Origin: Chloroflexota bacterium
Lineage (GTDB): Bacteria > Chloroflexota > UBA11872 > VXOZ01
Direction of reading: 5' to 3'
NCBI GenBank assembly: GCA_958295775.1
Contig: CATQHC010000009.1
Coordinates: 62,001-126,000, forward strand
DNA length: 64,000 nt
Under the pieces are notes generated by a model. It saw only the letters and a list, made by a program, of their open reading frames with translations, had not been told where the DNA came from and did no database searches. Shown here in pieces: positions 15,414 to 47,231 of the stretch (its first letter is position 1; each line of letters begins with the position of its first letter). The position numbers were made by a program, and so were the translations under genes.

Positions 15414-16340
15414 GTGCAAAGAATCTTCCAAAATCAAGGGCGGCGCTTTGGCATCTTGCCCGGTAGACAGCGGCAGCCGGAGATGCCTGACGAACTTTGG
15501 GAAAAGTGCGCAGGCTGCGAGGAAATGATCTACCTGGCAGAATTTGCGCAGAATGCGCATGTGTGCCCGAAGTGCGGCCACCATGCGCGACTAAATGCCC
15601 GCAAGCGTGTCGAATATCTCTTGGATGCCGGCACGTTTGCGGAGCGTGACGGCGACATGCGCTCGCAGGACATCCTGGAATTCGCACGACCGGACCGCAG
15701 TTACGATCAGAAACTCGCGGATGAAGCCGACAAGTCCGGCATTCCCGAAGCGGTCATATACGGTACCGGCGCAATTCACGACCAAGCTGTGGTGCTTGCA
15801 GTGATAGATACGAATTTCTTCATGGCCACGATGGGCTCTGTGGTCGGGGAAAAGATTACCCGGGCGATTGAGCTTGCCACGGCAACGCAGACGCCGCTCG
15901 TGATTGTGTCGGCTTCAGCCGGCGCGCGCATGGAAGAAGGCATGTTTTCACTCATGCAAATGGCAAAGACCTCCGCCGCCCTGGCGCGTCTCCACGAGGC
16001 GCGCCTGCTCTATGTTTCCGTGCTCACCGACCCAACCCTCGCTGGCGTCACCGCCAGCTTTGCCACGCTCGCCGACGTGATCGTTGCCGAACCGCAAGCA
16101 ACGATCGGTTTTACCGGGCCTCGTCTCATCGAGCAAATTACCCACGCCAAGTTGCCCGCCGGGACCCACTCGGCCGAGTTCATGCTCGAGCGCGGCATGG
16201 TGGACTGCATTGTGCCCCGCAGCGACTTGCGGCGCACGCTCGCGCGACTCATTGGTCTCTACTCTCCTCCGATGCCGAATTTTCACACCGACGGAGTGCC
16301 GCCGCTGAACGGCGGCCCGCACGCGGAGAGTGTTCTCTAA
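15414..16340 (+). CDS. accD: Acetyl-CoA carboxylase carboxyltransferase subunit beta
   Basis: Beta subunit of the carboxyltransferase that moves CO2 from biotin to acetyl-CoA in fatty-acid synthesis. The N-terminal zinc ribbon is complete (CAGC, 15 residues, CPKC). The crotonase-like core includes VVGEKITRAIELA, VSASAGARMEEG and TIGFTGPRLIEQ. The 308-aa length is normal. It starts at GTG 15414. accA begins 2 bases after its stop, so the two subunits are co-translated. Neither accC nor accB is adjacent. Confidence 0.95.
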   Translation: MQRIFQNQGRRFGILPGRQRQPEMPDELWEKCAGCEEMIYLAEFAQNAHVCPKCGHHARLNARKRVEYLLDAGTFAERDGDMRSQDILEFARPDRSYDQKLADEADKSGIPEAVIYGTGAIHDQAVVLAVIDTNFFMATMGSVVGEKITRAIELATATQTPLVIVSASAGARMEEGMFSLMQMAKTSAALARLHEARLLYVSVLTDPTLAGVTASFATLADVIVAEPQATIGFTGPRLIEQITHAKLPAGTHSAEFMLERGMVDCIVPRSDLRRTLARLIGLYSPPMPNFHTDGVPPLNGGPHAESVL

Positions 16341-16342
16341 CG

Positions 16343-17293
16343 ATGGCGTACGAATTCGAACAAGCGCTCGTAGACCTGCGCGAACGCATCGACTCCATGG
16401 AGTCCGAGCTCAAGAACGGTGCTCCGGACGACGCGGCGCAGGAATTGCAATCACTCCGTTCCGAGCTTGATCGGCAGACTGCGGACGTATTCGCCAATCT
16501 CTCACCGTGGGACCGGGTGCAGCTTGCCCGCCATCCGCAGCGTCCACGGACACTGGACTTCATTCGCTATGCCTTCACCGACTTTGTGGAACTCCACGGT
16601 GATCGCCACTACGGTGATGATCTGGCGATAGTCGGCGGGCCTGCCCGCCTAGGCGACACGCCGGTCATGGTAGTTGGGCATCAAAAGGGCAAGGACGCCA
16701 AAGACAATCAACTGCGCAATTTTGGCATGGCGCATCCGGAGGGCTTCCGCAAGGCCCGGCGACTCATGCAGCAAGCGGAGAAGTTTCGGCTGCCGCTCTT
16801 CACGTTTCTCGATATACCCGGCGCCAGTCCGTTTCTTGCCGATGAAGAACGCGGCCAGGCGTGGGCGATAGCCGAAAATTTGCTGACGATGAGCCAGTTG
16901 CGGACGCCAATAATCGTCACGGTCATAGGCGAAGGCGGCAGCGGCGGAGCCTTAGCTCTGGGGATCGGCGACCGCGTGCTCATGCTGGAATTCAGCATGT
17001 ATTCGGTTGCTTCACCGGAGGGGGCCGCATCCATTGTTTGGAAAGATGCAAAGCTCGCGCCGGAAGCGGCCGGTTCGTTGAAGCCATTTGCTCAGGACTT
17101 GAAAGAGCTCGGCATAATTCACCGCGTCGTACCGGAACCGGTTGGCGGCGCCCACGTGGACCCGCGCGGCGCGGCGCAAGACCTCAAGGCCGCCCTGGTG
17201 GAAGAGCTAGCTGCGCTCCAGAAGTTCCCGGCACCCAAGCTCGTGGAGCGCCGCTACGAAATATACCGCTCGCTGGGAGTCGTTGCCCCGTAG
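16343..17293 (+). CDS. accA: Acetyl-CoA carboxylase carboxyltransferase subunit alpha
   Basis: Alpha subunit of the same carboxyltransferase. Characteristic motifs are FEQALVDLRERIDSME at the N-terminus, FTDFVELHGDRHYGDD, GHQKGKDAKDNQLRNFGM, FLDIPGASPFLADEERGQ and GEGGSGGALALGIGD. The C-terminal IIHRVVPEPVGGAHVDP is also typical. At 316 aa it is a full-length AccA. It follows accD after 2 bases. The intergenic region beyond carries two dispersed repeat copies. Confidence 0.95.
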   Translation: MAYEFEQALVDLRERIDSMESELKNGAPDDAAQELQSLRSELDRQTADVFANLSPWDRVQLARHPQRPRTLDFIRYAFTDFVELHGDRHYGDDLAIVGGPARLGDTPVMVVGHQKGKDAKDNQLRNFGMAHPEGFRKARRLMQQAEKFRLPLFTFLDIPGASPFLADEERGQAWAIAENLLTMSQLRTPIIVTVIGEGGSGGALALGIGDRVLMLEFSMYSVASPEGAASIVWKDAKLAPEAAGSLKPFAQDLKELGIIHRVVPEPVGGAHVDPRGAAQDLKAALVEELAALQKFPAPKLVERRYEIYRSLGVVAP

Positions 17294-44264: not shown

Positions 44265-45353
44265 ATGAGCCCAACACCACCCCCAACCGCCCCTCGTCTA
44301 AAGAAAATGCGGGACTGGCTTCAGGAATCTGAGGTAGACGCCTTTCTGGTGAGCAACGACTACAACCGCCGCTATCTTTCCGGCTTCACAGGTAGTTCCG
44401 GCTGGCTTCTAATCAGTTCCGACGCCGCCCTCCTGATAACGGATTCGCGCTACACCGAACAGGCAGAAAAGCAAGCGCCAGAGTTCACGATAGCGCCGCA
44501 GTCAGGGCCGTTCGCTCCATTGCTCTTGGAGCTCTGCAAGGAGCACAGTATCGAGCGGCTGGCATTCGAATCTGAGCACGTGAGCGTGGCCGCCTGCGAG
44601 ACCTATACGGAGAGCTTGGACGGCGAAATCAAGCTCGAGGGGTCCCAAGGGGTTGTAGAAAAATTCCGGGTGGCGAAGGAGCCGGATGAAGTGGCTGCGC
44701 TGCAGCGAGCCATAATCATCGCCGATGACGCTTTTGGCGAACTGGTAAAGTGGCTGCGTCCCGGCATAACCGAGAAGGCAGTCGCGTGGCGCTTGGAGGT
44801 GCTGATGCGCGAGGGCGGCGCCGAAGGACTGTCTTTTCCGTCAATTGTTGCTGCCGGACCTAACGGCGCTATGCCGCATCACCGCCCGGGAGACGACGTC
44901 ATCCCTGCAGACACGTTCATTGTGATGGACTTTGGCTGCATTGCCGACGGGTATTGCTCGGATATGACGCGAACCGTTGTGCTCGGTACACCGTCCCCAC
45001 AAATGCAAGCGATTTACCGGCTGGTATTGCAAGCTCAGGAAACGGCAGAAGCACATGTGCATGCGGGTTTGACCGGCGTTGAGGCAGACGCGTTGGCCCG
45101 CGAGGTTATCGTGGCGGCCGGGCACGGCGACCACTTCGGTCATGGTCTGGGTCACGGCGTCGGCCTTGAGATTCACGAAGCGCCGCGCCTTTCCCCGCTC
45201 GCGGGGGATACGCCGCTGCCTGCCGGCGCGGTTGTGTCCATCGAGCCCGGCGTATATTTGCCCGGTGTTGGCGGGGTGCGGATCGAGGACCTGGTGTTGC
45301 TGCGCGACGACGGCGCCGACATTCTTACCGGATCGCCAAAGATGAAATTCTAA
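44265..45353 (+). CDS. M24 family aminopeptidase P / Xaa-Pro dipeptidase
   Basis: 362 aa. The N-terminal creatinase-like domain (VDAFLVSNDYNRRYLSGFTG) precedes a pita-bread catalytic domain with the five metal ligands. These are two Asp in VMDFGCIADGYCSDMTRTVV, His in HFGHGLGHGVGLEIHE, Glu in VVSIEPGVYL and Glu in GVRIEDLVLL. It removes N-terminal residues next to proline. It precedes efp by 29 bases, the order also seen in Bacillus and many other bacteria. Confidence 0.93.
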   Translation: MSPTPPPTAPRLKKMRDWLQESEVDAFLVSNDYNRRYLSGFTGSSGWLLISSDAALLITDSRYTEQAEKQAPEFTIAPQSGPFAPLLLELCKEHSIERLAFESEHVSVAACETYTESLDGEIKLEGSQGVVEKFRVAKEPDEVAALQRAIIIADDAFGELVKWLRPGITEKAVAWRLEVLMREGGAEGLSFPSIVAAGPNGAMPHHRPGDDVIPADTFIVMDFGCIADGYCSDMTRTVVLGTPSPQMQAIYRLVLQAQETAEAHVHAGLTGVEADALAREVIVAAGHGDHFGHGLGHGVGLEIHEAPRLSPLAGDTPLPAGAVVSIEPGVYLPGVGGVRIEDLVLLRDDGADILTGSPKMKF

Positions 45354-45382: not shown

Positions 45383-45946
45383 TTGATCGAGACCGGCAAC
45401 CTACGACGTGGAGTCGTAATCGAATATGAAGACGCTATCTTCCGTCTGGAAGACGTAAAACACATCAAGATGGGCCGTGGCGGCGCAGTGGTTCGGCTAA
45501 AGCTCCGACACGTGCAGGACGGCCACATCATCGATCGCACCTGCGATGCCGGTGCGCGCTTTCGCCAGATTCGGCTTGAGCAACGCCCAGCGCAATTCCT
45601 CTACCAGGAGGATGACGTTTTTCACTTCATGGATACGGAATCCTACGATGAGATTCTCGTAGACGCATCCCTCTTGGCAAACGCGGTTAACTTTCTCAAG
45701 GATGGGGCGATGATCGAGCTTGAGATGCACGGCGAGCGTGTTCTCGACGCGTCCTTGCCTCCCTCAATCGAACTTGAAGTTGCAGATACCGCTCCTGGCG
45801 TCAAAGGCGACACTGCCGCCGGCGGCACGAAACCCGCGACAGTAGAGACAGGATTGGTCGTCAACGTGCCGCTCTTCGTTAATGTGGGCGACACAATCCG
45901 CGTGGATACGCGTACAAACGGTTACCTTGAACGGGTGCGTTCGTAG
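45383..45946 (+). CDS. efp: Translation elongation factor P with Arg32 at the loop tip
   Basis: Relieves ribosome stalling at polyproline. All three domains are present in 187 aa: the KOW-like N-terminal domain, the OB fold (FHFMDTESYDEI) and the C-terminal EF-P domain (VPLFVNVGDTIRVDTRTNGY). The loop that enters the peptidyl-transferase centre is HIKMGRGGAVVRLKLR. The tip residue is Arg32, where Lys is used by the EpmA or hypusine-like pathways. Arg32 is rhamnosylated by EarP in some proteobacteria. It starts at TTG 45383 with AGGAGG upstream. Its stop overlaps the accB start (TAGTG). Confidence 0.94.
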   Translation: MIETGNLRRGVVIEYEDAIFRLEDVKHIKMGRGGAVVRLKLRHVQDGHIIDRTCDAGARFRQIRLEQRPAQFLYQEDDVFHFMDTESYDEILVDASLLANAVNFLKDGAMIELEMHGERVLDASLPPSIELEVADTAPGVKGDTAAGGTKPATVETGLVVNVPLFVNVGDTIRVDTRTNGYLERVRS

Positions 45947-46443
45947 TGAGTGATAAAGACGAAAAGTCAGAAGAGGGCTCCACCGGACCCGCGCCCGCAC
46001 TCTCACAAGTCGTGCAGGAGCGTTTGAAGCCGCTGCTAGACCTTGTCTCCGAGTCTGACGTAGAGGAACTTTCCCTGGAGCAAGGCGGCATTAGGGTAGC
46101 GATCAAACGTACGGCACAGGTTGTTACTGTGGCTTCAACGCCAGCGACCACAGCGGTTGAGGAAGCTGAACCACAATTGCACGTGGTGCACGCGGGGAGG
46201 GTTGGCGTATTTGCCCGCAGCCGCAGCCAGGATCAGCTTCCCGTCATCGATGAGGGCGCAACGGTTACGGCAGGGCAATTGCTCGGCTACATCGAGGTGC
46301 TCAATGTGCTCAACGAAGTCCACGCACCTTATGACGGTACCTTGGAACGGTTTCTGGTGGAATCCACACAACCGGTGGAATACGGCCAGCCGCTCGCCCT
46401 GATCGAACCCGCCCCGGAACCGCCAATGGACGACGTGGAGTAG
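45946..46443 (+). CDS. AccB-like biotin carboxyl carrier paralogue lacking the biotinyl lysine
   Basis: 165 aa in the usual accB position after efp. The N-terminal helical segment (LKPLLDLVSESDVEELSLEQ, then GIRVAIKR) and Ala/Glu linker match AccB. The C-terminal biotinyl/lipoyl domain is complete: GRVGVFARS, VIDEGATVTAGQLLGYIEVL, APYDGTLERFLVESTQPVEY and GQPLALIEP. The biotinylation motif E-A-M-K-M-M-N reads E-V-L-N-V-L-N. The acceptor lysine is Asn120 (codon AAT, 46303-46305) and both flanking Met are lost, so it cannot be biotinylated. Plants have analogous lysine-less BADC proteins that downregulate acetyl-CoA carboxylase. No accC follows. It could be a regulator, an assembly partner or a degenerated copy. 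Confidence 0.9.
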   Translation: MSDKDEKSEEGSTGPAPALSQVVQERLKPLLDLVSESDVEELSLEQGGIRVAIKRTAQVVTVASTPATTAVEEAEPQLHVVHAGRVGVFARSRSQDQLPVIDEGATVTAGQLLGYIEVLNVLNEVHAPYDGTLERFLVESTQPVEYGQPLALIEPAPEPPMDDVE

Positions 46444-46670
46444 CCCCCAGACAGCCGTCGGCACGGTTGCGGGCCCGGCCCCCAATCTTCATGGGCTTTG
46501 GCAGAAATTAGGCGCCACGACGTTCCATCGCAGCGCAGCACCAATGGCCTGATTTCACCATCGATGAATCCTCTCTTTGCGCCCCGCTTCAATCAGCTAA
46601 CTACAGAGCACAATCTAAGAATTGGAAATTCCTTGATTGAACTGGCTTTCCGCGAGCAGGTTTGCGCCTA

Positions 46671-47231
46671 ATGGATACCTTCTACGCCAAAGACAGAGAG
46701 GAGTGGCGCGCGTGGTTGCACGAACATCACGCCGCTGCCAAGGAAATCTGGCTCATCTACTACCGCAAGGCCACCGGCAAGCCTCGGGTCTCATATAACG
46801 CTGCCGTGGAAGAGGCGCTCTGTTTCGGTTGGATAGACAGCCAGCAAAAGGGCATCGATGAAGAGCGCTTCGCCCAGCGCTTTTCACCACGCAAGCCGGG
46901 CAGCAACTGGTCGGAAACAAATAGAGTGCGCCTGCGCAATCTCATCGCCGAGGGGAAGATGATGCCTGCCGGGCTGGCCGTAGCGCAGGGCGTCATCCTC
47001 GATGAACCGTTTGTGATTCCGCCAGACATTGAAACGGCGCTGAAGCGGGACGCCCAGACGTGGCAGCACTTTCAGAGTTTTCCGGAAGACTATCGCCGCA
47101 TTCGTGTGGCCTTCGTCGAGTCCGCGCGCAACCGGCCGGCGGAGTTCAAGAAGCGTCTGAACAATCTGGTCAGAATGACGGCAAAGAACAAGACGTTCGG
47201 TTACGTGAAAGAGCTCACTGACAAAGCGTAG
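46671..47231 (+). CDS. YdeI/OmpD-associated family protein
   Basis: 186 aa. Typical opening DTFYAKDREEWRAWLHEHHA, with KEIWLIYYRKATGKPRVSYN, ALCFGWIDSQQKGIDEERFA and QRFSPRKPGSNWSETN. The C-terminal TKN-like MTAKNKTFGYVKEL is also in the family. Members are small cytoplasmic proteins sometimes named bacteriocin-protection proteins, but their function is not established. ATG 46671 gives the family start; TTG 46662 is the longer frame. No operon partners. Confidence 0.88.
   Translation: MDTFYAKDREEWRAWLHEHHAAAKEIWLIYYRKATGKPRVSYNAAVEEALCFGWIDSQQKGIDEERFAQRFSPRKPGSNWSETNRVRLRNLIAEGKMMPAGLAVAQGVILDEPFVIPPDIETALKRDAQTWQHFQSFPEDYRRIRVAFVESARNRPAEFKKRLNNLVRMTAKNKTFGYVKELTDKA

Follow-up and report, generated by a model that had tools for sequence, protein, structure and literature searches.

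Acetyl-CoA carboxylase (ACC) catalyzes the step that commits the cell to fatty-acid synthesis and is a target of antibiotics; the heteromeric bacterial enzyme is treated as having a settled composition (AccA, AccB, AccC and AccD). The window analyzed here, a continuous stretch of 64,000 nucleotides from a Chloroflexota genome, raises the question of what role is played by an AccB that is encoded in the classical position behind efp and lacks the lysine that normally carries biotin.

A complete AccB without the biotinyl lysine

The gene in question, referred to here as accB* (45946-46443, forward strand, as are all features within it), is an unbroken, complete reading frame of 165 amino acids, whose GTG start shares one nucleotide with the TAG stop of efp, the gene for elongation factor P (45383-45946, forward strand; profile searches). 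A gene of the M24 Xaa-Pro peptidase family (44265-45353, forward strand), recognized by a profile search and in the loci of relatives, is the conserved upstream neighbor. A previous sequence-only reading of the locus had stated that the biotinyl lysine was lost from an otherwise complete domain, and both parts of this statement were confirmed. The biotinylation motif reads E-V-L-N-V-L-N-E, the (E)AMKM context of the biotinyl lysine is absent, and alignment with lysine-bearing copies and E. coli BCCP places Asn120, encoded by AAT (46303-46305), at the lysine position. A biotinylation lysine shifted to another site was rejected, since the C-terminal domain (residues 76-165) contains no lysine at all, and a sequencing error in the AAT codon, which that reading had named as a possible objection, was excluded by the same EVLNVLNEV in four genomes of the genus that had been assembled separately.

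Within the biotinyl/lipoyl family, BCCP was the nearest family to accB* in profile searches; Pfam Biotin_lipoyl (PF00364) matched with 31.4 bits, above its cut-off, and the BCCP model TIGR00531 scored 80.3 bits, under its equivalog cut-off of 115.2 bits. AF2 predicted a biotinyl-domain fold for residues 79-156 (46180-46413), with a pLDDT of about 98 across most of the domain, and the top Foldseek matches, 1bdo and 4hr7_G, were both E. coli BCCP. In the predicted structure, the hairpin that normally presents the biotinyl lysine (residues 112-126; 46279-46323) carries L119-N120 at its turn. The N-terminal helix (residues 19-36) and beta-hairpin (residues 41-54), which together form the conserved BCCP N-terminal element (46000-46107), were modeled with low confidence in the monomer (pLDDT 53-66); this element could be matched to that of the E. 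coli BCCP of 4hr7, and its conserved E-E...G...R-R is common to lysine-less and lysine-bearing copies in the alignment.

ACC genes elsewhere in the genome

The earlier claim that accC is absent holds for the locus, where accB* adjoins efp and not accC, and fails for the genome, in which a single accC adjoins nusB on another contig (G000:C2:811799-813133). The genes accD (carboxyltransferase beta, 15414-16340) and accA (carboxyltransferase alpha, 16343-17293), both on the forward strand, were found 30 kb upstream of accB*, as had been noted. A search of the genome for a second AccB with an AMKM motif, which had been recommended together with that for accC, was also successful, the motif being EAMKVFNEV in a copy located between fabF and bioY (G000:C6:100576-101073). 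Loss of ACC from the whole genome was therefore rejected, as accA, accD, accC, a lysine-bearing accB, bioY and birA are all present. In this particular genome accB* adjoins efp and not accC, so that its link to ACC would be one of homology. Throughout the class, the lysine-bearing accB usually follows fabF and precedes bioY, which encodes the biotin transporter (L036:3743-6423, G000:C6), a position suggesting that the functional carrier is tied to biotin supply. The nusB gene still following accC (L035:900-2823, G000:C2) appears to be a remnant of the order efp-accB-accC-nusB, which suggests that an ancestral locus of this type was split by rearrangement. An OmdA/YdeI-family gene (window 46662-47231) downstream of accB* was not seen adjoining accB* in other families and keeps its position across the genus.

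Conservation and selection within the class

Both AccB copies were read by sequence in a search of 41 genomes of the class. The efp-linked AccB lacked the lysine in all 39 genomes in which the M24-efp-accB locus was readable, and the M24 and efp neighbors were conserved wherever the contigs showed them. The replacing residue is Asn in the genus of the window and Gly in most other genomes, the remaining ones having Asp, Gln or Asn; of the proposal that orthologs might conserve the asparagine under purifying selection, the selection and the absence of lysine were supported, but not the conservation of Asn itself. Conversely, every fabF-linked copy read (EAMKVFNE), often with bioY behind it, possesses the lysine. 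Both types of AccB were present in 36 of the 39 genomes, and the three in which only the lysine-less copy was seen (G006, G008 and G024) are 81-89% complete.

Within the genus of the window, dN/dS values calculated by the Nei-Gojobori method ranged from 0.08 to 0.35 for the lysine-less gene and from 0.09 to 0.24 for the lysine gene, the least saturated pair (G003-G004, moderate dS) giving 0.08 and 0.09, respectively, and several other pairs with dS >1 giving only rough ratios. Mean identity was 0.397 for the lysine-less and 0.428 for the lysine copy (r=0.946; 33 genomes of the class, 528 pairs). This agreement in divergence and dN/dS suggests that the lysine-less protein is under roughly the same constraint as the functional carrier, and it has invariant positions of its own (V86, G87, F89, G131, V144, Y146 and G147). 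The objection that relatives might all have the lysine and this copy be under relaxed selection did not apply, as the locus lacks the lysine in relatives and selection is purifying. The earlier argument against simple decay was borne out by the unbroken frames of those class members that were read, the purifying dN/dS and conservation across the class. A pseudogene was rejected likewise, with neither relaxed selection nor a broken frame found in accB*.

Paired copies and ACC operons in other lineages

Similar results were obtained outside the class, where families were sampled from a 301-genome search of the phylum. An efp-linked AccB without lysine, with N, Q, G, R or D in its place, occurs in many other Chloroflexota families, including those labeled Ktedonobacteraceae/Ktedonobacterales (L099, L103, L061 and L062), and across other lineages the lysine is replaced by Gly, Gln, Asp, Arg, Thr or His. 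A separate lysine-bearing AccB (found with a profile of the fabF-linked type, motif verified) accompanied the lysine-less copy in 40 of 41 sampled genomes, although this and the other frequencies outside the class are not prevalences, the genomes having been chosen by their best matches to the lysine-less profile; only G240, a fragmented 88% genome, departed from this pairing. The AccB found in a further 15 genomes keeps its lysine and is efp-linked where the neighborhood could be seen. A search of these 15 genomes with the fab-type profile returned no second AccB of that type. The next matches were for the most part long chains that resemble acyl-CoA carboxylases and score near 50 bits, G152 being the exception with two further, different lysine-bearing biotinyl proteins. 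Such extra proteins of other types, with the motifs EVMKLMHSV, GVMKTFHQI and EVMKTFHEV, were observed in G152 (L290, L291) and in Thermomicrobiales AVDCRST_MAG18 (L424, L432), both of which have the lysine at the efp locus; the one at L432 lies near accA, accC and accD.

In several relatives the lysine-less gene is located directly in an ACC operon. G270 and G258 have two lysine-less and two lysine-bearing copies each, with the gene order accD-accA-accC-accB*-accB(K) in G270 (L303) and adjacent accC, accB* (MIEVLHIPSEV) and accB(K) in G258 (L239), accB(K) being the lysine-bearing gene. In four further families (f24, f13, f32 and f34) the lysine-less copy has Gly in 30 of 30 loci read and lies, where the contig allows, between accA and accC (accD-accA-accB*-accC), and examples from these families show the lysine-bearing copy beside fabF.

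A comparable arrangement was found in Armatimonadota, where nearly all of 51 genomes have two AccBs and the lysine-less gene is situated between efp and accC in the order efp-accB*-accC-nusB. Among the copies read that adjoin efp, accC or both (in many cases nusB as well), 21 are without and 6 with the lysine, while copies elsewhere number 25 with (one gene being represented twice) and 0 without. Several of the six lysine-keeping copies (L359, L366, L381, L382, L344 and L379) have weakened motifs (ESLKVPNEI, ESMKVFDEV) and, standing amid groups with lysine-less sisters, the six look like intermediates. In contrast, most of 20 genomes from other phyla with a normal AccB in an accC context have one full-length AccB.

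Complementary motifs and loss of the lysine

A second difference between the two copies concerns the tail, where accB* has the motif VEYGQ (residues 144-148; 46375-46389), which is retained in lysine-less copies and missing from the lysine-bearing partner. The efp-type AccBs of single-copy Chloroflexota genomes combine EAMK with the tail VE[YF]G in 15 of 15 cases. In two-copy genomes VE[YF]G occurs in none of 80 fab-type lysine-bearing copies, and in 65 of 72 lysine-less copies, to which 22 of 22 in ACC operons are to be added; since the lysine-less profile was seeded with VEYG-bearing sequences, the count for lysine-less copies is biased upward and the 0/80 count is unaffected. Armatimonadota showed the same trend (1 of 25 lysine-bearing versus 16 of 21 lysine-less copies). 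Both copies of two-copy genomes retain the N-terminal helix-hairpin signature. Such complementary loss of EAMK and VEYG is the pattern expected if the catalytic and structural tasks of an ancestral AccB had been parceled out between two proteins.

In a tree of Chloroflexota and outgroups from which the eleven motif residues had been removed, two label changes separate lysine-bearing from lysine-less copies. When Armatimonadota were added the number rose to about ten (about 145 columns, weak backbone), because lysine-bearing and lysine-less efp/accC-linked copies interleave in that phylum. A single origin of all lysine-less copies, compatible with the smaller tree, is less likely on the larger, weakly supported one. 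Read cautiously, these trees point to a probable repeated loss of the lysine, which on every occasion would have affected the efp/accC-linked AccB of a genome carrying the other copy as well. The variation of the replacing residue between families suggests that the position itself may be unconstrained.

A biotin-free subunit as the preferred reading

Taken as a whole, these data point, with a probability that we put at about two in three, to accB* encoding a biotin-free, non-catalytic, BADC-like subunit of ACC that probably scaffolds the assembly of AccC and AccB. That its product is physically a member of ACC is strongly inferred from the pairing with a lysine-bearing copy, the location in ACC operons of relatives, purifying selection and the complementary retention of motifs. 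The role of AccB would have been divided in this lineage between two specialized proteins. The fabF-linked copy would be biotinylated and swing between AccC and AccA/AccD, whereas the efp/accC-linked copy would have kept the N-terminal helix-hairpin and the body of the biotinyl domain and dropped the lysine. Most likely, the latter would enter the AccC-AccB subcomplex by way of the N-terminal hairpin and the surface of its domain, and promote the assembly or set the geometry of this subcomplex, as proposed for plant BADC, possibly through a mixed hairpin barrel. The sequence-only reading had likened the gene to BADC and left open whether it acts as a regulator or as an assembly subunit; the idea of a non-catalytic subunit is strengthened by class-wide conservation, purifying selection, the lysine-bearing partner and the ACC operons of relatives.

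A different role would be that of a dampener, in which a dead carrier would occupy AccC or the carboxyltransferase in competition with AccB(K) and lower flux, co-expression with efp tying fatty-acid synthesis to translation. In vivo work in plants reads BADC as an inhibitor competing with BCCP for BC (PMC7712654, PMC11926652), and the one-nucleotide overlap couples accB* to efp. Nevertheless, a nearly universal lysine-bearing partner, a similar rate of divergence and operons with all catalytic subunits fit an obligate subunit better, and more frequent loss would be anticipated for a pure competitor; dampening is thus rather unlikely, and the gene-neighborhood and conservation evidence favors an assembly or structural role over pure inhibition. 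It is less probable still, and in our view improbable, that accB* has left ACC to serve another process such as EF-P or translation. The gene does follow efp and not accC in the window, as it does in most Chloroflexota families, but ACC genes are themselves commonly arranged in the order efp-accB-accC (observed in L052, L072, L074, L079 and L113), and the lysine-less gene lies between efp and accC in Armatimonadota and between accA and accC in other Chloroflexota families. A duplicate decaying after the fabF-linked AccB took over could account for a lysine seemingly lost several times in Armatimonadota and for the varying residue, yet purifying dN/dS, intact frames, a divergence rate equal to that of the functional copy and the protein's own invariant positions make fading function very improbable. 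Attachment of the cofactor to another residue, to which the preserved fold lends its sole support, or an assembly error behind the Asn is barely credible given the lysine-free residues 76-165, the repetition of Asn in separately assembled genomes and the Gly, Arg, Asp, Gln, Thr or His at this site in other lineages.

Comparison with known systems

The biotin-free subunit proposed here has its closest parallel in plant BADC (Arabidopsis BADC1-3), which, like accB*, is a BCCP homolog without the biotinylation motif that coexists with a normal lysine-bearing BCCP in the same organism. BADC binds BC and BCCP, promotes assembly and has been described as glue (PMC11926652), and a 2025 paper calls it unique to the plant enzyme (PMC11926652). 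Unlike BADC, accB* is bacterial, lies in efp-accB or ACC operons and has the VEYG tail; no bacterial lysine-less AccB was found in the open-licence papers searched. With canonical AccB (BCCP, TIGR00531, efp-accB-accC) accB* shares homology, locus, two-part architecture and the VEYG tail, but it lacks the lysine, has EAMKMMN replaced and scores below the equivalog cut-off. Actinobacterial epsilon subunits (AccE/PccE) are also non-catalytic and aid assembly of the acyl-CoA carboxylase holoenzyme, although these are unrelated small proteins that, unlike accB*, have no biotinyl domain. They are alluded to in the BADC literature (PMC11926652). A structural precedent from the same phylum is BC1 of Chloroflexus aurantiacus, a fused BC-BCCP in which an eight-stranded barrel built from the N-terminal BCCP hairpins ties BC dimers into a tetramer; the hairpin alone tetramerizes the enzyme and raises its activity, the biotinyl core being unneeded (PMC11077971). 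The hairpin of BC1 is thus purely structural, as proposed for accB*, but its BCCP is fused to BC and biotinylated on Lys553 instead of being a separate subunit.

If the proposal is true, ACC would have, throughout entire phyla, a fifth subunit that is free of biotin, the BADC solution would not be confined to plants, and natural pairs would be available in which the structural role of a single small protein stands apart from its catalytic one. It also carries a warning for annotation, as in these genomes the carrier is not encoded by the accB that occupies the classical position.

Distribution beyond Chloroflexota

The apparent repeated loss of the lysine in bacteria makes an origin of lysine-less AccB independent of plant BADC plausible. 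The wider proposal, that AccB has split into a biotinylated carrier and a biotin-free scaffold, both needed for an AccC-AccB-AccB* subcomplex, and that this bacterial BADC arose more than once and independently of plants in Chloroflexota, Armatimonadota and perhaps a third phylum, is one that we consider slightly better than an even bet. Elusimicrobia are a possible third phylum with the same split. In one genome of that phylum (L086, PFUL01000188.1), EAMKxxNE has given way to the degraded motif ETGKARHPV in an accB near accC that keeps VEYGQ, and a second accB elsewhere has EAMKVFND without VEYGQ.
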